Part shown: one piece after another, positions 7,818-37,270 of the stretch
Numbering within the stretch: position 1 is the first letter of the stretch
How the letters are laid out: every line of letters begins with the position of its first letter
DNA from: Deltaproteobacteria bacterium RIFCSPLOWO2_12_FULL_60_19
GTDB lineage: Bacteria > Desulfobacterota > Binatia > UBA9968
Direction of reading: 5' to 3'
Assembly (NCBI GenBank): GCA_001798595.1
Contig: MGSS01000152.1
Coordinates: forward strand, 13,397 to 50,666
DNA: 37,270 bases
The notes under the pieces: generated by a model
What the model was told of the DNA's origin: nothing
Database searches by the model: none
The model's input: the letters and a program-made list of their open reading frames with translations, nothing else
Position numbers and translations under genes: made by a program

Positions 7818-8284
7818 AGGTATCCCCCTTGCGCTGTCCCTCGACAATGCTCGGGAACGCTCCCTCGGGGCTCAGCGGCCGGCTTTTTGTTGTGAAAATA
7901 AACCGGAAGCGCTACCAAAATTACCCACTCTGAGGGACCACCGGGAACTGTACGACCTCCGCGGCCGTTTGCGCTTTCTTTACTCTCCCCGCCATCGGTT
8001 CCTCCGGAAGGCAGCTTCCCTACGATCTTCTCCAGTGCTCCGCTGCCGCTGGACTCTGGAGCTTCTCCGGGCAGATAGAGAATCACCCCGCCGCGCGTGG
8101 GCCGTTTCTCGATGACACGCTTAGCGGCCAGCCCTCTTGTGGCTTCAACAGGGTCCTCGTGGAAATAACCCCTGAAGGCTTCATTGAACCTGGAATAAAC
8201 CGAGTGAATCCCCTTGCGGCCAGGCTCCCGAAGCGTCTCTATAGCCCTGAGCACAAACTCCTCCTGGCTGATTTTGTCACTCAT
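7811..8284 (-). CDS. Hypothetical protein with winged-helix-like N-terminus
   Basis: 157 residues from the ATG at 8284, which has GGAGGG six bases upstream. Residues 1-75 (KISQEEFVLRAIETLRE..., then ATRGLAAKRVIEKRPTRGG and VILYLPGE) look like a small helix-rich, winged-helix-type domain ending in a beta hairpin. From about residue 80 the sequence becomes low-complexity and glycine/serine-rich. The last residues and the TAG stop lie in the right arm of the inverted-repeat element at 7796-7812, so the native C-terminus may have been replaced. A -10-like TATTAT (8361-8356) lies beside direct repeats upstream. Function unknown. Confidence 0.55.
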   Translation of the reverse strand: MSDKISQEEFVLRAIETLREPGRKGIHSVYSRFNEAFRGYFHEDPVEATRGLAAKRVIEKRPTRGGVILYLPGEAPESSGSGALEKIVGKLPSGGTDGGESKESANGRGGRTVPGGPSEWVILVALPVYFHNKKPAAEPRGSVPEHCRGTAQGGYLI

Positions 8285-8359
8285 AGCCAACCCTCCTTTT
8301 TTTTGGAAAATTTGGGGGCTTATCGATCCCCCTAACCAAAGGCGTTGACCACCGAATAA

Positions 8360-8386
8360 TACCTAGTTACGTACCTAGTTACCTAG
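8360..8386. promoter_or_regulatory. TACCTAGT direct repeats, possible operator
   Basis: TACCTAGT begins at 8360 and 8372, and TACCTAG recurs at 8380. They lie 75-100 bases upstream of the gene starting at 8284, next to a minus-strand TATTAT (8361-8356) that lacks a consensus -35 box. They may be binding sites for an activator or repressor. Confidence 0.4.
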
Positions 8387-8744
8387 CCGTAGGACATAGA
8401 TGCAGGGATAGGCAGGCTACCTTAGGATTCCCCCCTTTCACCTGCCTCGCGTCGCTCCATTGTACCAGCCGGCTCAAGGCCGCTTTTTAGAGATTTGTCG
8501 CCAAAATGACAAAATTTTCTGCCGCATTTGCTGTATAATGCATTTTCTCGGACCGGGCCTTACCAGATGGTAGGGGTATTTTCGGGTTCGCGGCCTTGAC
8601 CTCGGCCGGTGTGTCGCTCCGCGGGCGAGGCAGGTTTTCGCCGAGCAAAGGTCGATTTGACAGCTCTCATTATCCGCTTAAGCTTAAAGTATGCCCTAGA
8701 AAAATATCGCCACAATCCAGGAGCTCGACAGTTCAAAAAGTTCG
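8387..8744. other. Gene-free stretch with a promoter-like TATAAT
   Basis: No convincing gene is seen. TGTATAAT at 8532-8539 is a good -10 box on the plus strand, but no -35 box is correctly spaced. The inverted repeat TTTGTC/GACAAA (8494-8513) lies just upstream and could be an operator. No believable coding frame follows. Confidence 0.3.
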
Positions 8745-8910
8745 ATCGGCACCGTTCAAGCCGCCTACCCACCCTAGCTTCCACGGTTCAACGGGTTCCC
8801 CCCTTCGACTTCGCTTCGCTCCGCTCAGGACAGGCAAAGTTGTTTAACGGCAGTCCCCCGACCGACCGCCCGCCTCCGTTCGAGTCGTTCAAAAGGTTCA
8901 ACGGTCGCGT
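8745..8910. repeat. GTTCAA-word repeat block with the GCTTCGCTCCGCTCAGGACAGG unit
   Basis: GTTCAA/GTTCGA words recur irregularly around a core (about 8803-8833) rich in CTTCGACTTCGCTTCGCT followed by CCGCTCAGGACAGG. The same units are found at 10540-10835 and 11836-11955. The block abuts the 3' end of the AlbA_2 gene. Confidence 0.65.
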
Positions 8911-8916
8911 CTCCCC

Positions 8917-10368
8917 CTACCCGCCCTCCCGCGCGATGGCTTCGCGACCGGCCTCGGTCGTCCGGTACCGCTGCATACGGCTTCTCGGCTTATCGGGAAT
9001 GGTCATCTGGAGCAAGCGCAAGTCTAAAAGCGGCTTGATGAACTGCTCACGGAATTTGGTGCGGTTCTTGCGGCCGACGGAGTTCATAAGTTCAAGCAGG
9101 GTTCCTTCTTTACGGCAGAGCCGAAGAATCTTGACTTGCTCCCTACTTAGTCCCGACTTAGTCCCGACTTGGTGCCGACTTGGTCCCGACTTGGTCCCGA
9201 CTTGGTTCGTGACTTCCTCGCTCGCTGCGAGCGCCTGTCTGCGCACTTCGGGGTTGGGATAGAACGTCGCAGTGAAAAAACCCGTGGTCTCGAATTTAGG
9301 TTCGGGGCTGCCGCATTTTTTGGCCTCCTCGCGCATGCGCTTGATGCCGGTACCCGCCTTCTCGATAAATTCGATCCGGTGCAGCAGGTCCGCGATCAGC
9401 GGATTGCGCCGCACGCTCTTGTGGCCTAGGTCGGAAGGCAGCATCCCTTTGGGCAGACCGCCGGGGTTCGAGACCTCGATGCGGTCCGTGTAAATCTCTA
9501 CGAAAACGTTGGCTCCCTCGTTGAACCAGTCGCGGTGCATGACGGCATTGGTGACCGCCTCGCGCAGGGCGGCCAGGGGGTACTCGGGGATCTCCTCGCG
9601 GCGCAGCCGCTCGATGCGATAGGCCACGCGGGTGTTGCGCTCGATGAAGCGCAGGGCCTCTTCGATGTCGGCGACGATCCCTCCGTCGAAGTCCTTGCGG
9701 TCGAGGATGTGCGTCTTGTCCGTGCCGCGGGCGAGCAGGCAGGTGATATAGGCATGCGGGAAGAAATGCCTCACGTTCTTTGCGAAGAAAAGGACTCCGG
9801 CATTGCGGAAGATGAGCTTGCCGCCCGAGCGCTCGGCCGCCTCGATATTTACGAGAACATCCTCGATTCGCCCTCTACGCGTGATCCGGCTTTCATGAAT
9901 CCACGCGTCGAATTTCGCGCGATCGAAATCCTCAGGGTAACGAAACTTTGGATAAACGGTCAGGTCGAAGCGGATCGCACCCTCGCTGCGGAAGAAATCC
10001 CGTATCTCATCCCGCGAGAGCTTCTGGGTGCTTGCTCCCTGACGCCAGAAAAAGCCGTCACGGCATTGAACGGGTTTGCTTTCGCTCTCTCGCACAACGA
10101 CGGCCAGCACATTTCCGACCGCTTCCACGAGGACGTTAACCGGCGGATCGCAATTTCGCGCTATGTCCTGTATCTGGGCTCTCAAGTCGTTGGTATCGCG
10201 CATTCCGACCACTGTGCCGTCATTACGAACGCCGAGCAGGATCTTGCCGCCGGCGCTGTTGGCAAAGGCCGCCAACTCCCGCGCCAAAGAGGAGGACAGG
10301 GACTCCTTATACTCAAGCATGGAACCTTCGCCCTCGTGAAGAAGAATATCAAGGTCTCTCTGGTTCAC
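8917..10368 (-). CDS. AlbA_2 (Schlafen-type) / GHKL ATPase putative transcriptional regulator
   Basis: 483 residues. Residues 10-125 form an AlbA_2 domain (EYKESLSSSLARELAAFANS, then GGKILLGVRNDG). Residues 260-370 form a GHKL-type HATPase_c_4 domain: N-box LREAVTNAVMHRDW, G1 RIEVSNPGGLP and G2 IEKAGTGIKRM. Residues 410-480 look like a winged helix. This is the 'RecG-like/Schlafen' regulator architecture, predicted to bind nucleic acid and ATP; some members act in defence or as antitoxin-like regulators. The linker at residues 386-411 is encoded by an 11-bp tandem repeat. Translation starts at GTG 10368, with GAGGAG close upstream. It stands alone between repeat blocks in the accessory zone. 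Confidence 0.85.
   Translation of the reverse strand: MNQRDLDILLHEGEGSMLEYKESLSSSLARELAAFANSAGGKILLGVRNDGTVVGMRDTNDLRAQIQDIARNCDPPVNVLVEAVGNVLAVVVRESESKPVQCRDGFFWRQGASTQKLSRDEIRDFFRSEGAIRFDLTVYPKFRYPEDFDRAKFDAWIHESRITRRGRIEDVLVNIEAAERSGGKLIFRNAGVLFFAKNVRHFFPHAYITCLLARGTDKTHILDRKDFDGGIVADIEEALRFIERNTRVAYRIERLRREEIPEYPLAALREAVTNAVMHRDWFNEGANVFVEIYTDRIEVSNPGGLPKGMLPSDLGHKSVRRNPLIADLLHRIEFIEKAGTGIKRMREEAKKCGSPEPKFETTGFFTATFYPNPEVRRQALAASEEVTNQVGTKSGPSRHQVGTKSGLSREQVKILRLCRKEGTLLELMNSVGRKNRTKFREQFIKPLLDLRLLQMTIPDKPRSRMQRYRTTEAGREAIAREGG
9138..9214. repeat. 11-bp tandem repeat inside the AlbA_2 gene
   Basis: Five adjacent 11-bp units (9149-9203; consensus GGTCCCGACTT on the plus strand) are flanked by one degenerate unit on each side (9138-9148 and 9204-9214). 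Because 11 is not a multiple of three, three units encode an 11-residue peptide period (QVGTKSGPSRH, then QVGTKSGLSRE). No stop codon appears within the unit in any of the three forward frames of the gene strand. Confidence 0.85.
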
Positions 10369-10470
10369 GGCTCCTCATTGACGGCGTTCAAAACCGACGA
10401 TTCCCCGTCAGGTCTCTCAGGAATAGATTTCGCAGGCAGTGTCATTTGCGAATCTTATACAACAAGCATT

Positions 10471-29521: not shown

Positions 29522-30244
29522 CTACAGTCCCACGATTTTCCTGAGCGCGGTAATTTCCCGCGGGGAGAGCGAACGATACTCCCCCGGCCCCAACGAGCCC
29601 AGGCGCAGCGGCCCCATGCGGACGCGGACCAGCTTTTCGACGAAGTAGCCGAGCGTTTCGAACATCCGCCTGACTTCGCGGTATCGCCCCTCGTGGATTT
29701 CGATTTCCACCCAGGCCTTTTTGTGCAGCCGCTCCACCACGCTGACTTTGGCGGGCGCGGTCCACCCATCTTCCAGCCGAATCCCCTTTCTCAGCCGCTC
29801 CAGCTCGCTCTCCGAGGGATGGCCGCTGACTTTCACGCGATAGAGCTTGCGCACCCCGTAGCGCGGATGCGTAAGTCTCTGGGCAAGCGGTCCGTCGTTG
29901 GTCAGCAGCAGCAGGCCGGAGGAGTTGAAGTCCAGCCGCCCGACCGGAAAGAGACGCCCTTTTCTACCGAGCGACTCGAGCCAATGGCCGAGATCCGGGC
30001 GGCCTTGCGGATCGCGCATTGAAGTCAAAAGACCGGGAGGCTTATGGAATAAAATGTAACTCAGCGCGGGACGCGGGATGAGCTTGCCATCGACTTTGAT
30101 TTTGTCTCGATCGGCGTCGGCCTGCGAGCCCAACTGCTTCACCACCGCGCCGTTGACGGTCACGCGGCCCTGTTGAATCCACGTCTCCGCTTCCCGGCGG
30201 GAGGCCAGACCCGCGCGCGCGATGATCTTCTGCAAGCGCTCCAT
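29522..30244 (-). CDS. rluB: RsuA/RluB-family 23S/16S rRNA pseudouridine synthase
   Basis: 240 residues. N-terminal S4 RNA-binding domain (residues 1-60: MERLQKIIARAGLASRREAE) and a catalytic domain with Asp105 in VGRLDFNSSGLLLLTNDG. C-terminal YREVRRMFETLGYFVEKL is typical. It converts a uridine in rRNA to pseudouridine; RluB-type by length and by its place after scpA-scpB, though RsuA or RluF specificity cannot be excluded. Its stop faces the terminator of the fusion gene. It is separated from scpB by a palindromic stutter. Confidence 0.92.
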   Translation of the reverse strand: MERLQKIIARAGLASRREAETWIQQGRVTVNGAVVKQLGSQADADRDKIKVDGKLIPRPALSYILFHKPPGLLTSMRDPQGRPDLGHWLESLGRKGRLFPVGRLDFNSSGLLLLTNDGPLAQRLTHPRYGVRKLYRVKVSGHPSESELERLRKGIRLEDGWTAPAKVSVVERLHKKAWVEIEIHEGRYREVRRMFETLGYFVEKLVRVRMGPLRLGSLGPGEYRSLSPREITALRKIVGL

Positions 30245-30255
30245 GTTTAAAGACC

Positions 30256-30319
30256 GTCAGGGGTAAGGCGTCAGGGGTGAGGCGTCCCCACCCCTTACCC
30301 CTCACCTTTCACCCCTCAC
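30256..30319. repeat. GGGGTAAGGCGTCAGGGGTG stuttered palindrome
   Basis: GTCAGGGGTAAGGCGTCAGG and GGTGAGGCG words on the left are complemented by CCCCTTACCCCTCACC and CACCCCTCAC on the right. The final codons (REG) and stop of scpB lie in the right arm. Confidence 0.65.
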
Positions 30320-30881
30320 GATTAAGCGGTTGGGCTTCCGGGTCGGGTGGAGGCGGGGCCGCCATCTCCTCCATCTCTTTCAGCGTCGGCAGATGGCTCA
30401 AGTCTTTGAGGTTGAACAGTTCGAGGAACTCGGGCGTCGTGCCGTAGAGGAAAGGCCTCCCCGGTATATCCTTGCGCGCCACGATCCGGATCAGCCGCCG
30501 CTCCAACAGGGTCGCCACGACTCCATCGACGTCCACTCCGCGAACCGCCTCGATCTCCGCCCGCGTGATCGGTTGGCGGTAAGCGATGATCGCGAGCGTT
30601 TCGAGCGTCGCGCGCGTCATGCGCGCCGGTTTCTCCCGATAGAGCTTCTTCACCCATTCGGCGTTCTCCCGGGCGGTCCGTAGTTGATAGCCGCCGGCGA
30701 CCTCCGTCAGCCGAAAGCCCCGTCCCGCCGCGTCGTATTCGGAGATCAGCTCCTCGACGGCCGAGACAATCTCTTTTCGCTCGACGCCCGTGAGTATCTC
30801 TCCCAATTGCGCCGGCGTCAGCGGCCCCTCGGAAGCGAAAAACAGACTCTCCAAAACCGATTTCAACTGCTCACGCTCCAT
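30309..30881 (-). CDS. scpB: Segregation and condensation protein B
   Basis: 190 residues from the ATG at 30881, after GAGGGAG; the longer open frame to 31022 lies inside scpA. It has two winged-helix domains: KSVLESLFFASEGPLTPAQL at the start and MTRATLETLAIIAYRQPITR plus GRPFLYGTTPEFLELFNL in the second. ScpB is the kleisin-binding partner of the SMC-ScpAB chromosome condensin. It overlaps scpA by 11 bases. The C-terminal REG and stop are supplied by the adjacent stutter element, so the native tail may have been different. Confidence 0.95.
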   Translation of the reverse strand: MEREQLKSVLESLFFASEGPLTPAQLGEILTGVERKEIVSAVEELISEYDAAGRGFRLTEVAGGYQLRTARENAEWVKKLYREKPARMTRATLETLAIIAYRQPITRAEIEAVRGVDVDGVVATLLERRLIRIVARKDIPGRPFLYGTTPEFLELFNLKDLSHLPTLKEMEEMAAPPPPDPEAQPLNREG

Positions 30882-31641
30882 CGCCGTCTCCCTCGATCTC
30901 CTCCGTTGCGATCTTCTGCTGCACCTCTTCCAGCGGCGCCGCCAGTGCCAGGACGATGGGGCCGACAACCTCCTCCTGCCAGATTCGGATCGCGCGCATC
31001 TTGACCAGCTCCAGCATGGCAAGGAAGGTAACGATCACCTCCATGCGCGACGACGCCCCCTCGAAGACGCTCTGGAATACCACCTTCTCCTCCTGGCGCA
31101 GGCGGTCCAGCAGCTGGCTCATCTTCTCGCGCACGGAGACCTTCTCCAGCGCGACCTCGTGCACCGAGTCCTTCGGCAGACGGTCGAGCACCGTTCTCAG
31201 CGCCGAGATCAGATCGAACAGCGACACGCTCTCGAACCCGCCCGTCTCGACCTCCTCGGGCGGCTCCGGCGCGCGCGTGAAGACATCGCGCCTGAGAATA
31301 TCCCGCCGCGCCAGCTCTTCGGCGGCCTCTTTGAAGCGCTGGTATTCCAACAGCCGCCGCGCCAGCTCCGCGCGCGGATCGCCCTCTTCATCCTCCTCCA
31401 GGTCCGACTCGTCCGGCGGCAGCAGCATCCTCGACTTAATGTGGATCAGCGTTGCGGCCATCACCAGAAATTCTCCGGCGACGTCGAGGTTCAGGTCCCC
31501 CATCAGCTCGATCGTCGCCAGGTACTGCTCGGTGATCGGGGCGATCGGAATATCGGTGATGCTGACTTCGCTTTTCTTGATGAGGTGAAGCAGCAGGTCG
31601 AGAGGCCCCTCGAATATTTCCAGTTCGACTTTCGATGTCAT
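30871..31641 (-). CDS. scpA: Segregation and condensation protein A (kleisin)
   Basis: 256 residues. The N-terminal kleisin motif EIFEGPLDLLLHLIKKSEV, then AGEFLVMAATLIHIKSRMLL, and the C-terminal winged helix (VTFLAMLELVKMRAIRIWQE) are diagnostic. ScpA bridges SMC heads and binds ScpB. An acidic linker (ESDLEEDEEGD) lies near residue 80. The gene overlaps trpS upstream by four bases and scpB downstream by 11, a tightly coupled operon. Confidence 0.96.
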   Translation of the reverse strand: MTSKVELEIFEGPLDLLLHLIKKSEVSITDIPIAPITEQYLATIELMGDLNLDVAGEFLVMAATLIHIKSRMLLPPDESDLEEDEEGDPRAELARRLLEYQRFKEAAEELARRDILRRDVFTRAPEPPEEVETGGFESVSLFDLISALRTVLDRLPKDSVHEVALEKVSVREKMSQLLDRLRQEEKVVFQSVFEGASSRMEVIVTFLAMLELVKMRAIRIWQEEVVGPIVLALAAPLEEVQQKIATEEIEGDGDGA

Positions 31642-32615
31642 AACCCGACGGCGCTTCTCACCTGCTCCATCGTTTCAGCGGCTTTTTCCTGGGCGGCCCG
31701 GTTGCCCGCGGAGAGCGCGTCCTCCGCGTCGCCGGGCCGTCGATCGTACCCCGCTCTTTTTTCCTGAAACGGTTGAAGCTCCTCGACCACGTGCTTGATC
31801 ATGATTTTCTTACAATCGAGGCAGCCGATCCCGGCAGTGCGGCATCCTTTAGAAACGTAGTCGATCTCATCCGGCGTGCAATAAATTTTGTGCAGATTGA
31901 ACGCCGGGCATTTTTCCGGCTCGCCCGGGTCCTGACGCCGCACCCGGGCAGGATCGGTCATCATCCGGCTCAACTTCCGATCGATCTCCTTCGGCGAATC
32001 CGTAAGAAACACCGCGTTGCCGTAACTCTTGCTCATCTTTCGCCCGTCGAGGCCCGGCACTTTGGGGATTTCGGTCAAAAGAACTTCAGGCTCGGGAAAT
32101 ATTTGCCCGTAAAACTGGTTGAAGCGCCGGACAATCTCCCGCGTCAGCTCCAGGTGCGGCGCCTGATCCGCGCCCACCGGCACTTTATGCGCCTTGTACA
32201 TGACGATATCCGCCGCCTGCAGCACCGGATAGCCGAGAAAGCCGTAGGTCGAGAGGTCCTTGCCCACGATCTCCCGGATCTGTTCCTTGTAGGTCGGATT
32301 GCGCTCCAGCCACGGAACCGGCGTGATCATCGAAAGCAGCAGGTGAAGCTCGGCGTGCTGCTTGACCGCCGACTGGCGAAAGATCACGCAGCGCTTGGGG
32401 TCCAGGCCGACGCTCAGCCAATCCTTCATCATCTCCAGCCCGCTCTCCTGAATTCCCTGCGGCGTCGCATAGTCGGTCGTGAGCGCGTGCCAGTCGGCGA
32501 CGAAGAAAAAACACTGATAGCTCTCCTGCAGCCGGAGCCAGTTCTTAAGCGCCCCGTGGAGGTGGCCGAGATGAAGATTGCCCGTAGGGCGCATGCCGCT
32601 GACGATCGTCGCCAT
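31638..32615 (-). CDS. trpS: Tryptophan--tRNA ligase
   Basis: 325 residues, the bacterial TrpRS length. Class I signatures: the HIGH-type NLHLGHLHGAL (His15-His18) and GRKMSKSYGN (KMSKS, residues 193-197). An additional Cys-rich region near residues 250-270 (CRTAGIGCLDCKK) resembles the TrpRS subgroup that carries a metal or Fe-S site. It charges tRNA(Trp). The stop overlaps scpA by four bases. The M50 protease gene lies 11 bases upstream. Confidence 0.97.
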   Translation of the reverse strand: MATIVSGMRPTGNLHLGHLHGALKNWLRLQESYQCFFFVADWHALTTDYATPQGIQESGLEMMKDWLSVGLDPKRCVIFRQSAVKQHAELHLLLSMITPVPWLERNPTYKEQIREIVGKDLSTYGFLGYPVLQAADIVMYKAHKVPVGADQAPHLELTREIVRRFNQFYGQIFPEPEVLLTEIPKVPGLDGRKMSKSYGNAVFLTDSPKEIDRKLSRMMTDPARVRRQDPGEPEKCPAFNLHKIYCTPDEIDYVSKGCRTAGIGCLDCKKIMIKHVVEELQPFQEKRAGYDRRPGDAEDALSAGNRAAQEKAAETMEQVRSAVGL

Positions 32616-32626
32616 AGACTCTCTTT

Positions 32627-33286
32627 CTACAACAGTAGTTCGAAAATGCCGAGGAGAAAACGCACGGCCGGCCCCATCAGGGCGTCCAGCGCGTCGGTCA
32701 TCAGGAGAACCATGATAATCAGGAAACCGTACGGCTCCACCCGTGCCACGATCGAAGCGTGCGGCTCAGGCAAAAGCCCGACCAGGACGCGGCCACCGTC
32801 CAACGGCGGAACCGGAAAGGCGTTGAAGACCGCTAAAACGAGATTGATGATGATGCTGCCTTTCGCCATGAGTGCGAGCGGCATGATGACCGCCGCCGCG
32901 AGAGAGGACGAACCCGGGTCCAAGCCAATCAGCAGCTTCAAAGCCGCCAGGCTGCCGAACGCCAGCAGGATATTCGTCGCCGGCCCGGCGAGCGCGACCC
33001 AGATCATGTCCCGCTTGGGATTCTTCAGGTTATGGTAATTGACCGGCACGGGCTTGGCGTAGCCGAACAAGAAGGGCGCGCGGACCAGAATCAACAGAAG
33101 CGGCAAAATGATCGTCCCGAACAGGTCGATGTGCGGGATCGGATTGAGCGTCAATCTCCCCAGCTGCTTCGCCGTCGGGTCCCCCAGGCGGTTGGCGACC
33201 CAACCGTGCGCGACCTCGTGAAACACGATCGCCGCCAGGACAGGCAACGCCCAGATTGCAATCTGTTGTATCGTTTCCGCAACCAC
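32627..33286 (-). CDS. Site-2 protease (M50) family integral membrane protease
   Basis: 219 residues with about five or six membrane segments. Zinc motif HEVAH (residues 23-27) and the third ligand in NAFPVPPLDGG (residues 155-165). GTG start at 33286 with GAGG upstream. Members cut transmembrane substrates; this short form without PDZ is the type often found beside trpS and scpA. Eleven bases separate it from trpS, so it heads the operon to rluB. Its substrate is unknown. Confidence 0.93.
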   Translation of the reverse strand: MVAETIQQIAIWALPVLAAIVFHEVAHGWVANRLGDPTAKQLGRLTLNPIPHIDLFGTIILPLLLILVRAPFLFGYAKPVPVNYHNLKNPKRDMIWVALAGPATNILLAFGSLAALKLLIGLDPGSSSLAAAVIMPLALMAKGSIIINLVLAVFNAFPVPPLDGGRVLVGLLPEPHASIVARVEPYGFLIIMVLLMTDALDALMGPAVRFLLGIFELLL

Positions 33287-33377: not shown

Positions 33378-33911
33378 TCATTCAACAGGCGTCTCTGTGG
33401 ATGAAGCGGGCTGGACCATCGAGCGAGTCAGTTGGTGGACGATGCTCGATTCGCGTTTGTAGAAGCCTTCGGTGTGTAACGATTCACGCAGCTCGAGCAG
33501 CTCGTAGTCGAGGTGATGACAGATCTCATGAATGAAAGTTCGAAGCAAGGTCTTAAACGCAACGACCTGCTTTCGCTTGGCCGTGCGCATCCAGACCGTG
33601 ATCGTCGGCAGCGCCCCGCCCTACCGCACGCGATAGAGGCCGTGCAGCTCTCCCCACCGGCGCGACGGGCGAGTCGCCAGCACTTCGACGCGCACCGGAG
33701 CGATTCTAAAACTCTTCGCCAGCGCGCTCGCCAATCCCTGGCAGGCCTCCTCCACGATTCGGCGATCGTCGCGCACCAGCGCCTGCGCGACGCCATCCAC
33801 CAGACAGTCGAGCGCCGGGATCGCCGGCAGGCGAATGGCGGCAATCTCGTCGCTGCGCTGGTAAACGCGCTGCTGCGTTCGATTCAAGCGGCGGTAGTAG
33901 GCGAAGGGCAT
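33378..33911 (-). pseudogene. HExxH metallopeptidase-like gene interrupted by one amber codon
   Basis: A single minus-strand frame runs from the ATG at 33911 to the stop at 33378 and is broken only by TAG at 33623-33621. Upstream part: MPFAYYRRLNRTQQRVYQRS to RRWGELHGLYRVR. Downstream part, same frame: ITVWMRTAKRKQVVAFKTLL, then RTFIHEICHHLDYELLELR with a zinc-type HExxHH, and HTEGFYKRESS. The continuity in both sense and phase shows one 177-codon gene. It could be a recent pseudogene, a sequencing error or a readthrough codon. It is a small zinc-peptidase-like protein of unknown role, in the conserved xerD-M50 neighbourhood. Confidence 0.75.
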
Positions 33912-33962
33912 GACTCTGGGACGAGCTAGAAGCTAAGACTGAAGAAATTTCCGTAACCGCTA

Positions 33963-34084
33963 AACTCCATGACTCCGAGTTGGACAAAATGTCCAGCCAT
34001 ACTTGGAAACCGCCCGCGCGTTGACATAGAAGGGCGTTATCGGATACTCTCTCCTCCGAAACGGCGATCCGAACGGGCTCGACC
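33963..34084. repeat. 122-bp direct repeat, copy 1
   Basis: Aligns over its whole length with 36808-36929 without gaps; I count 26 mismatches (about 79% identity). A 26-bp core beginning TATCGGATACTCTCTCCTCC is identical in both. On the minus strand the frame beginning VEPVRIAVSEERVSD parallels that of copy 2 but has no start codon. Confidence 0.75.
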
Positions 34085-34377
34085 TATTTCCTCCGGTCAC
34101 TTGAGCCCCTCAAGGGATGCGGCGGCGCGGGGTCGCCGGGAAAAATCCGGCGCTTCGAGCTTGTAGTCGAAAAACAAATTCCTGTCACTTAAAGCAAAAT
34201 ACTACGGCAGTAAAACGCGGTCTTCAATGGAGCTTCTTGCAATGCCTCGTCGTTTTAAATAGCATCCCGCGTGATAGCTTACGTGACGGCTTTTTGTTTT
34301 CGAAAATCGCCGGCTCTTTAACCGGGAAACCTTCACTCCGATCAACATCGTCATAATCATTTTTATGGAGGGTTACG
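34085..34377. other. Gene-free leader before the cyclodeaminase gene
   Basis: Nothing certain. A minus-strand frame without ATG ending at 34097 (NLFFDYKLEAPDF ... ASLEGLK) looks like the last residues of a lost gene and is followed by GGAGGA just before repeat copy 1. No convincing promoter for the cyclodeaminase gene is seen; GGAGGG lies five bases before its ATG. Confidence 0.3.
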
Positions 34378-35472
34378 ATGCTGCTCATCAATAATCAAGA
34401 GGTTGAGAGCTTGCTGCCGATGAAAGACTGCGTCGAAGTCATCGAAGAGGCCTACCGGGAGCTCGGCGCCGGTCTCGCAGCCAATTTCCCCGAGGGCGGA
34501 CGAATGGACGTGCAGGCTCCCTCGCCGGGGGACCAGCCGGAGAGATGCTATATTTGGGGAGGGCTCGCGGGAGTCATTCCCAAGAGGGAAATCTTCGCGC
34601 TACGAATCAAAAGCGATATCCGATACCCGGAGCTCAATATAAACGGCGTGCCGACGCATAAGAAGTTTTGCATAGAGCCGGGGACATACTGCGGCCTGGT
34701 GTTGTTGTTCAGCACTCGAAACGCGGAGCCTCTGGCGATCATCAACGACGGCGTCATCCAACACCTGCGTGTCGCGGCTACCAGCGGAGTGGCCGGTAAA
34801 TTCTTGGCCCGCAAGAACAGCGAAACCCTCGGCATGATAGGCTCGGGCGGAATGGCCGGAACCCACGCCCTTGCCTTTTGCGCGGTGCTACCGATCAAGC
34901 ACATCAAGGTCTTCAGTCCCACCCCTGCACATCGGTTGGAGTTTGCGCGGAAAATATCCGACCGGATCGGCATCAAAGTCGACGCGGTGGATACAGCAGA
35001 AGAGGCCGTGAAAGGCGTGGACGTTCTTTCCAGTTGTACGGATTCACTCTCTCAAGTAGTCAAGGCGAGCTGGCTGGAGCCTGGAATGCACGTTGCCTGC
35101 GTGCTTCCCTTCGAAGTCGAGCCAGAGGCTGTAAAGAAAGCCGACGTCGTGGTGCGGCATCTCAACGGCGGCGCGGTGGGCGTGAAAGCGGCGGCGGCCG
35201 AATTAAACGAGCACGAACGCGTCCGGCGAAAACTCTATGAGCAGTACGGACCTCCATTGGAAGAACGACGGGATTTGCCCACGCTGGCTGAGATCATGAG
35301 CGGCAAGAAACCCGGAAGAACCGGCGATCGCCAGATAACGTATTTCCATAATGTGCCGGGCTCCGGAATTCAGTTTGCCGCCGTCGGCGCGAGGATATTG
35401 GAATTAGCCAAGAAAGCGGGAGTCGGCAAGGAGCTTCCGACAGACTGGTTCCTGCAAAATATTCGCGACTAG
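34378..35472 (+). CDS. Ornithine cyclodeaminase / mu-crystallin family protein
   Basis: 364 residues, slightly longer than typical (about 320-350). NAD-binding Rossmann motif GMIGSGGMAG (residues 152-161), preceded by the family signature HLRVAATSGVAGKFLARK. N-terminal substrate region MLLINNQEVESLLPM, with RIKSDI at about 76-81. The family includes ornithine cyclodeaminase, ketimine reductase, alanine dehydrogenase and lysine cyclodeaminase; specificity is not clear. GGAGGG lies five bases before the ATG. It is probably co-transcribed with the binding-protein gene 16 bases downstream, and lies between the two 122-bp direct repeats. Confidence 0.88.
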   Translation: MLLINNQEVESLLPMKDCVEVIEEAYRELGAGLAANFPEGGRMDVQAPSPGDQPERCYIWGGLAGVIPKREIFALRIKSDIRYPELNINGVPTHKKFCIEPGTYCGLVLLFSTRNAEPLAIINDGVIQHLRVAATSGVAGKFLARKNSETLGMIGSGGMAGTHALAFCAVLPIKHIKVFSPTPAHRLEFARKISDRIGIKVDAVDTAEEAVKGVDVLSSCTDSLSQVVKASWLEPGMHVACVLPFEVEPEAVKKADVVVRHLNGGAVGVKAAAAELNEHERVRRKLYEQYGPPLEERRDLPTLAEIMSGKKPGRTGDRQITYFHNVPGSGIQFAAVGARILELAKKAGVGKELPTDWFLQNIRD

Positions 35473-35488
35473 AGCAAGGGAATCAAAA

Positions 35489-36532
35489 TTGAAACCCAGG
35501 CATTCTTTTCGGATATCGATTCCGGGCGATGACTCAAAAACCCCGTTCGGCGTGTTACTTCTCCTATCGGCCGTCCTTTCTCTCCCGCTTTTTTCTGTAC
35601 GAGGCGAGGCGCAGGAAATCAGAAAAGTTCACGTCGCTGTGCCCGGGATCTCTCCGGGAGCGGCGAGCGCTTTCGTCATCGCCAGGGAGATGGGGTATTA
35701 CCGCGAGGAAGGCTTGCAGGCGGAGCTTGTCGTGATGCCCGCCGCCCTGAGCGCGCAAGCCTTAATCGGTGGCAGCGTAGAATTTACCAGCGCTGGCGGA
35801 GCCGTGCTCCCGCCTGCGCTTCGCGGTGCTCCGCTGCGATTTCTTTTTACCGCGTTCTACCGGCCTATGTACTGGCTTTTTTCCAAGCCCGAGCTTCGCA
35901 CCATAAAAAGCCTGAAGGGAAGAAAAGTCGGAGTCTCCAGCATCGGCAGCGGGCCGGATTCCCTGCTACGACAAATCCTGAAAGACAACGGAATGGACGG
36001 CGGGCGGGACGTAACGGTCATGGCCCTGGGCGCGAGCACCGCGCGGTTTTACGCCTTACAGGCGGGATCCGTGGATGCTTCGATGCTCGGTATTCCCGCC
36101 AACCTCATGGCCCAAGACGCGGGGTATAACGAGCTTATCTCATTCATCCGGCAGGAGTTCCTTGAGTTCCAGGGGAACATTGTCGCGCGAGAAGCGCTGC
36201 AGCAATCCGAGCCCGCCCTGATCGAAAAATTTCTTCGAGGCACCCTCAAAGGATTTCTGTACTACCGAGCCAACCGTTCGGGAACGATCAAGATATTCAG
36301 CCGTTTTATGAAAATAAGCGAAGACCAAATGGCCCGAATCTACGATTCGATTCTGCTTGGGCTTACCCACGATGGGACGGTGAGCGAGGAACTGCAGAAA
36401 AAATCCGTTGAGCACATTCTGGAAAGGGTCGGACTCAAAGAGCCCCCGCCTATGGACAGGATTTTCAACTACGGGCTGAGTAAAAAGATATACGACGAGT
36501 TGCAAATCAAAGGTTGGAAACCGGGTCGTTAG
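35489..36532 (+). CDS. NMT1/SsuA-type ABC transporter substrate-binding protein
   Basis: 347 residues from a TTG at 35489, with AAGGG upstream. It has a signal peptide with a long N-region (about residues 1-41, hydrophobic GVLLLLSAVLSLPLFSV, cleavage near GEAQ). Mature landmarks: VHVAVPGISPGAASAFVIA, EMGYYREEGLQAELV, ALIGGSVEFTSAGG and SLKGRKVGVSSIGSGPDSLL. The same family as the protein at 20739 but clearly diverged. It follows the cyclodeaminase-like gene by 16 bases; together they suggest uptake and conversion of an amino-acid-like or imine compound (inference). No permease or ATPase is adjacent. Confidence 0.88.
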   Translation: MKPRHSFRISIPGDDSKTPFGVLLLLSAVLSLPLFSVRGEAQEIRKVHVAVPGISPGAASAFVIAREMGYYREEGLQAELVVMPAALSAQALIGGSVEFTSAGGAVLPPALRGAPLRFLFTAFYRPMYWLFSKPELRTIKSLKGRKVGVSSIGSGPDSLLRQILKDNGMDGGRDVTVMALGASTARFYALQAGSVDASMLGIPANLMAQDAGYNELISFIRQEFLEFQGNIVAREALQQSEPALIEKFLRGTLKGFLYYRANRSGTIKIFSRFMKISEDQMARIYDSILLGLTHDGTVSEELQKKSVEHILERVGLKEPPPMDRIFNYGLSKKIYDELQIKGWKPGR

Positions 36533-36608
36533 GATATGCGGTCGCCTGAAGAATCGAATAGTTCCCGGATTGAAGCGAGCCATCGTTAAAGGATAGCCTT
36601 CGCCGGCG

Positions 36609-36692
36609 AAGACGATCATCAGCTTCATTGACCAACCTGACCTGATTCAAAAAATCCTTGCGCGCTTCGGTCTATGGGAAGAGTGTACTTAG
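36609..36692 (+). pseudogene. C-terminal remnant of an IS91-type transposase
   Basis: The frame KTIISFIDQPDLIQKILARF then GLWEECT and stop (36690-36692) resembles the conserved tail (IIAFIxxxxVIEKILxHLGLW) of IS91-like transposases, as I recall it. A stop codon lies just upstream and no other part of the gene remains. It indicates past transposition in the segment between the 122-bp direct repeats. Confidence 0.5.
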
Positions 36693-36807
36693 AAAAATGC
36701 TTGGTGGGTATATGACCTTTACTTGGAAGTTCTAATTGGCGAAAGGCAACAATGGAAGGCTTGAAAAAAGAGATCACTCTCGACTCATCCTATTCTCAGT
36801 TGGCCTG

Positions 36808-36929
36808 AACTCCATTACTCCAACCTGGGGCAAATGTCCATTTCTATCTGGAAACCGCCCACAAGTTCACATACGAGCGCCCTATCGGATACTCTCTCCT
36901 CCGAAACGCTAATCCGAACCGGCTCGACC
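36808..36929. repeat. 122-bp direct repeat, copy 2
   Basis: Ungapped match to 33963-34084 (about 79%). It starts 24 bases beyond the xerD stop codon and overlaps the 40-residue frame at 36815-36937. Confidence 0.75.
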
Positions 36930-36953: not shown

Positions 36954-37270
36954 TTACTTCCCCGCTCCCCTCTCCCTCGGATGATACTTCCTATGGACGT
37001 CTTTCAGATGGCTGCGGGTCAGGTGCGTGTATATCTGCGTCGTCGAAATGTCGGCGTGGCCGAGCATCGACTGGACGGAGCGGAGATCGGCGCCGCCTTC
37101 CAGGAGATGCGTGGCAAAGGAGTGGCGCAGCATGTGCGGCGTCACGCGCTGCTCGATCCCGGCGGCCAGCGCGTGATGCTTGAGCGCTTTCCAAAACCCC
37201 TGCCGCGTCATTGCCTTGCCGGAGCGCGTGACGAACAGATAGACGCTCAGCCGCCCGCGAAGGAACTTGG
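36954..37270 (-). CDS. xerD: Tyrosine recombinase XerD/XerC, C-terminal part (5' end beyond window)
   Basis: The frame continues to the window edge; the visible 105 residues include the catalytic-domain end: [20 protein letters not shown] (His-x-x-Arg), [20 protein letters not shown] (catalytic His/Tyr region with the Tyr nucleophile) and the typical tail [13 protein letters not shown]. It resolves chromosome dimers at dif with its Xer partner. XerD is favoured over XerC by the KxxHPR tail and by its position ahead of the trpS-scpAB block (inference). Confidence 0.9.

Follow-up and report, generated by a model that had tools for sequence, protein, structure and literature searches.

Dif-like sites on IS91-type relics flank cyclodeaminase and binding-protein genes in an uncultured Binatia bacterium: a possible case of Xer-dependent gene exchange

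The Locus Between xerD and the M50 Series

The window, i.e., the whole 37,270-nucleotide stretch of DNA from Deltaproteobacteria bacterium RIFCSPLOWO2_12_FULL_60_19 that was analyzed, stops at a contig end inside xerD, so that only the 3' part of this gene is visible (36954-37268, minus strand; TIGR02225, E=5e-44). Further inside lies the conserved series M50-trpS-scpA-scpB-rluB (29522-33286, minus strand), which xerD adjoins in relatives, with an SprT-like gene next to M50 (33378-33911, minus strand). Alignment with one-frame relatives in genomes G004 and G006 shows the SprT-like gene to be split by an in-frame stop, at codon 97 of the read-through frame; the gene is open in the G006 relatives, and in G004 it likewise carries a single stop, near the beginning of the gene.

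Between xerD and the split SprT-like gene sits a block flanked by repeats. A preliminary description had reported two ungapped 122-bp repeats, about 79% identical, around a cyclodeaminase-like gene, a binding protein and an IS91-type transposase tail. The direct repeat is recovered as 125 nt at 78% identity (33960-34084 and 36805-36929), and copy 1, used as a query against the whole genome, retrieves copy 2 at E=2.5e-23. The domain matches agree with the two gene assignments: an ornithine cyclodeaminase/mu-crystallin family gene (34378-35472, plus strand; PF02423, E=2e-42) is followed by an NMT1/SsuA-type substrate-binding protein gene (35489-36532, plus strand; PF09084, E=2e-18). The transposase tail is present as a relic only, two C-terminal pieces on the plus strand (36615-36802) that tblastn with the IS91-family transposase tail of a relative (contig G004:C93) places at 36615-36683 (74% identity) and 36767-36802 (92%). 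Cyclodeaminase-family genes are abundant in the lineage, with 25 matches in the genome itself and up to 34 in G007, and NMT1-type binding proteins often lie alongside.

Relatives carry the uninterrupted order that the preliminary description had supposed: xerD-M50-trpS-scpA-scpB-rluB, without the cyclodeaminase, is found in 11 family genomes, where the gap between xerD and the M50 series is mostly 67-320 bp and reaches ~640 and 1,070 bp in two. G004 and G002 share with the window an SprT-like gene adjoining M50; the G006 gene is 3.1 kb off, behind another insertion. The contrary arrangement, a cyclodeaminase pair at the same place with no repeats around it, was not found in the syntenic relatives. 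The pair does occur elsewhere, in G007 (86% and 81% protein identity), where the repeat is absent and the neighbors, read from their translations, are xanthine-dehydrogenase-type genes; DNA similarity between the window and G007 is confined to the two cargo genes. The pair is therefore an insertion in the window. Beside the SprT-M50-trpS series of G004 (C193, L153) there is a reverse transcriptase-like gene (75-1535) with an Asn/Arg-rich, GGSF-containing stretch ahead of it, an arrangement resembling, by its sequence, a diversity-generating retroelement.

A Dispersed Repeat Family Derived From IS91-Type 3' Ends

Both repeats belong to a dispersed family, which a search for further copies traced to numbers of up to ~70 per genome. 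A profile that uses sequence alone, made from 20 copies, matches 19 of 25 family genomes, with at least 70 matches in G004, at least 59 in G006 and at least 13-14 in the window's own genome; these are minimum counts, as scoring covered a portion of the candidates. When 145 genomes were drawn from the class, those matched by the profile were 16 genomes of the source family and one from another family of the same order. An exact 27-mer of the core had no match in named genomes.

The longer copies reveal the origin of the family: the C-terminus of an IS91-family transposase is followed by its stop codon and then by the repeat, most copies being cut off on the transposase side. The G004:C93 copy retains a nearly whole transposase with Zn_Tnp_IS91 (PF14319) and Y2_Tnp (PF04986) domains and a frameshift near the end; in the window's own genome, no Y2_Tnp match was found at E<=1e-5. 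The same G004 contig has a layout like that of the window, with a cargo hydrolase gene between two same-facing tail-plus-repeat units. Conservation over 35 copies ends sharply past a terminal motif like TCAAAAACAAGTTCCTATCATT, an oriIS-like terminus that contains TTCCTAT and lies 226 bp past the transposase stop codon. TTCCTAT is common to known oriIS sequences, e.g., those of ISCR27 (GCGGTTGAACTTCCTATACC, at 236 bp past the stop codon; PMC8894482) and ISCR1 (GTGGTTTATACTTCCTATACCC; PMC13023784). A check for IS91 ends in the window succeeded in part: the oriIS-like terminus is present in copy 1 (AACAAATTCCTGTCACT, 34173-34189, plus strand) and missing from copy 2, and a ter end was not identified. 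Judged by these features, both window repeats are non-coding 3' ends of an IS91-family element, copy 1 with a dif-like box and the oriIS-like terminus (33954-34189, plus strand) and copy 2 with the same 3' end minus that terminus (36793-36929, plus strand).

Other identities for the repeat were considered and rejected. The window segment matches no Rfam family, and the weak matches in L214 lie away from the repeat; alignments of 20 and 24 copies contain no covarying pairs that would mark a conserved RNA, a folded DNA or an integron attC fold; and a coding repeat is contradicted by broken frames and by the intergenic position of the copies, with genes around them called by a simple codon-usage script.

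The Conserved Core Resembles the Host dif

The most conserved part of the repeat reads, on the minus strand, GTATCCGATAA-N7-TTATGTCAACT; this core is found in 79 of 86 copies, with a 7-bp spacer in 73. Over a set of 131 copies the spacer is 7 bp in 123, 6 bp in six and 8 bp in two, within the 6-8 bp range of central regions in known Xer sites (PMC5357621) but unlike the 6-bp spacer of the host dif. Box 1 of the window, GTATCCGATAA CGCCCTT CTATGTCAACG (34019-34047, minus strand), has two mismatches to the consensus and is the best site in the window; its XerC-like arm, spacer and XerD-like arm occupy 34037-34047, 34030-34036 and 34019-34029. Box 2, GTATCCGATAG GGCGCTC GTATGTGAACT (36864-36892, minus strand; arms at 36882-36892 and 36864-36874, spacer at 36875-36881), is second best with three mismatches. 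No other site in the 37-kb window comes within six mismatches, the next best having seven. The two spacers agree at only 4 of 7 positions, so that any cassette integration here would be old or would have been followed by sequence change.

The pattern CGATAA-N6-TTATGTCAA occurs once in the genome, as ATGTCCGATAA-GATATA-TTATGTCAACT, located at a local change of GC-skew sign; this sequence has the form expected of a chromosomal dif. The Proteobacterial dif consensus had no convincing match in the family genomes, where dif emerged instead with CGATAA/TTATGTCAA arms; the dif of Frankia is CACGCCGATAATGCACATTATGTCAAGT for comparison (PMC3025954). Host dif spacers in relatives are the same GATATA in G006, TGTATA in G030 and GGTATA in G032. 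In the two 11-bp arms, which are in inverse orientation, the box consensus and the host dif are identical at 19 of 22 positions; the spacer of the box differs, being 7 bp, GC-rich and varied, unlike the 6 bp of dif. Allowing one mismatch, the spaced pattern has up to 27 matches per family genome, whereas the reversed pattern, used as a control, has none in 145 genomes. All 25 family genomes contain XerC-family genes; the xerC match of the genome itself (G000:C14:75591-76481), like those of some relatives, contains one stop, possibly simply the gene end.

Some additional observations accompany the box. A second conserved block, AAATGTCCA... followed by CTGGAA, lies ~10-40 bp to its left, on the transposase side (33990-34012 in the window, and in other copies), and is perhaps an accessory protein site. 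In a genome of another family, G078, four identical dif-like boxes, TCCGATAATCTCGCGTTATGTGAA, are found on C477 (6190, 8065 and 12483) and C335 (104). Three of the four face the same way within ~6 kb, and this may be an independent system of similar type. G052, from yet another family, has seven matches to the spaced dif-like pattern.

Orientation of Neighboring Sites and Exchange at the Box

Boxes 1 and 2 of the window face the same way, and so do most neighbors elsewhere: copies within 15 kb of each other are same-facing in a ratio of 18:1 (two-sided binomial P=8e-5), and those within 5 kb in a ratio of 13:1. Other lists contain opposite-facing pairs 7.8, 8.6 and ~15 kb apart, so the bias is strong, not absolute. 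The same-facing intervals hold amidohydrolases, NMT1 binding proteins, an enoyl-CoA hydratase, a TPP enzyme, an MmgE/PrpD protein and an X-Pro-type peptidase.

The flanks of the copies are mosaic. Among 25 copy pairs that are alike in the far left flank, which are not mutually independent, the near left flank is alike in 17 and the near right flank in one. In per-position profiles, the similarity of pairs alike on the left has dropped close to baseline in the spacer (0.48 vs. 0.43) and stays at baseline from 12 bp to the right of the box onward, and that of pairs alike on the right extends through the spacer (0.69) and falls to baseline ~20 bp to the left of the box. Across 32 copies, similarity is correlated within the left (0.35) and within the right (0.25) flank, and across the box the correlation is ~0; a stricter version with 19 copies was underpowered.

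At two loci, synteny also breaks at the box. In two sister genomes, the loci G014:C97 and G006:C97 are collinear over 4.46 kb at 91% up to the box and unrelated past it, and G014:C104 and G006:C220 are collinear over ~5.6 kb at 76-79% up to the box and again unrelated past it. A third genome (G019:C463) agrees with the first locus, where G006 and G019 share some cargo in rearranged form; a rare right-arm base is common to G014, G006 and G019, which puts the break just right of the spacer, not within it. At the G014:C97 locus (L358, ~8180-10400), the right side leads to xerC-hslV-hslU, and the window box abuts xerD, possibly a coincidence. All in all, the breaks in similarity and synteny fall at the box or within ~12 bp of it (about +29 to +41), with the exact base of exchange hidden because the box is common to all copies, and the oriIS terminus lies ~140 bp further. 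The genomes compared are metagenome bins; an assembly error behind the breaks would be unlikely, since the copies are too different to be confused.

Candidate Mechanisms

On balance, these observations make it somewhat probable that host Xer recombination uses the dif-like sites left on IS91 relics, and that the cyclodeaminase and the binding protein are one cassette moved in this way. An IS91-type element with a dif-like site has scattered its 3' ends across the chromosomes, and recombination at the site has swapped the adjoining DNA; host XerC and XerD, the simplest candidate agents of exchange at the box, would act on the two near-dif arms and the 7-bp GC-rich spacer between them. A circle with one site and a cargo would integrate at a resident site, leaving the cargo between two same-facing sites, and excision would be the reverse. 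The order of parts in the window segment, from a site and an oriIS end through cargo and transposase tail to a second site, fits a cassette integrated in this way. Neither a circular nor an excised form of a cassette was seen in this analysis, and we infer the circles and the route of this particular cassette from the arrangement of sites and flanks.

The preliminary description had pointed to one-ended transposition by an IS91 element. Its components stand, i.e., the insertion into a conserved neighborhood, the terminal direct repeats and the link to the IS91 family; as the sole mechanism it is not supported, since the most conserved part of the repeat is a dif-like site and the breaks lie at or near the box, not at the oriIS terminus. 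A rolling-circle IS91/ISCR transposition would start at the ori of copy 2, proceed through the tail, the binding protein and the cyclodeaminase with no stop at a ter, and insert the unit beside the ori of copy 1, with the box belonging to the ori region or serving its targeting. The transposase and its tail are genuinely IS91-family, the oriIS-like terminus ~226 bp past the stop is near the 236 bp of ISCR27 (PMC8894482), the transposase side is missing from most copies, and, as in the similar G004:C93 layout, the cargo is found on that side of copy 2 where the transposase tail is. Yet this model predicts junctions at the oriIS terminus, not at the box where they are found; copy 2 has no such terminus; no tetranucleotide of the GAAC/CAAG target type stands out beside the terminus in 35 copies; and the equality of the core with the host dif arms is left unexplained. 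We regard this route as rather unlikely, although it is the main rival, and one-ended transposition may have been what originally dispersed the sites.

It is improbable that the arrangement is a coincidence of a repeat-rich genome, with two 3'-end relics landing independently, or dispersed copies recombining by homology, around a pair that arrived otherwise. The family is indeed common in these genomes, and the window copies are old (78% identical) and degraded, with some similarity between them on both sides of the box, but independent landings should face either way and neighbors are same-facing 18:1, and homologous recombination at 60-78% identity over ~100 bp would be unlikely. Least probable is that the core is an outward promoter, TTGACA-N16-GATACT, kept on the IS91 3' end for driving downstream genes: hexamers at 34021-34048 score 10 of 12, copy 1 faces the cyclodeaminase and outward promoters occur in the oriIS region of ISCR1 (PMC6218425), but in gaps between co-directional genes the box points toward a gene start in only 24 cases to 15, too weak an orientation for a pure promoter family, and the match of the arms to the host dif and the swap of flanks at the box go unexplained. 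Promoter and dif-like readings of the core are compatible, not exclusive.

Comparison With Known Systems and Implications

Movement of genes by additional dif-like sites is known mainly in Acinetobacter, with its resistance modules, and in phages and islands that make use of Xer recombination. In Acinetobacter, plasmid and chromosomal dif/pdif modules are, as here, genes bounded by additional dif-like sites that have XerC and XerD arms, arranged in rows, with variable spacers and associated insertion sequences; their sites are opposite-facing with 6-bp spacers, whereas those described here are same-facing with 7-bp spacers and differ from the modules in this defining orientation (PMC12907356, PMC10132070). 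Also unlike the Acinetobacter modules, the present sites are embedded in an IS91-type 3' end, surround metabolic genes and reside on the chromosome of another lineage. The IMEX (CTXphi, VGJphi, TLCphi and the gonococcal island) are mobile DNAs with a dif-like site and same-facing end sites, and the attP of VGJphi is 29 bp, the length of the present box; IMEX use host XerC/XerD, a use that is proposed here, and integrate at the chromosomal dif itself, in contrast to boxes that lie far from dif in tens of dispersed copies (PMC5357621).

With IS91/ISCR elements the family shares the zinc-binding and Y2 transposase, a non-coding 3' end with a TTCCTAT-containing terminus and adjoining cargo; unlike them, it has a dif-like site in its core and has lost the transposase in almost all copies, with no ter end identified. 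As in integrons, cargo lies between same-facing recombination sites in arrays, but the repeat has no conserved fold, no integron integrase was seen in the segment and the arms match dif, not attC. Among the papers searched, none mentions IS91, XerCD and dif-like sites together.

More tentatively, the genomes of this one bacterial family could have an integron-like cassette system that spans the chromosome: dif-like sites would be distributed by IS91-type elements, and the housekeeping XerC/XerD would shuffle metabolic cassettes of binding proteins, amidohydrolases and cyclodeaminases between them. If this is true, chromosomes with tens of same-facing sites each, borne on IS91-type 3' ends and flanking metabolic genes, would represent a new route to changing gene content in an uncultured lineage. 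It would also raise a testable question, namely how a cell with many near-dif sites avoids deleting segments of its chromosome; the extra base of the spacer is a candidate answer.
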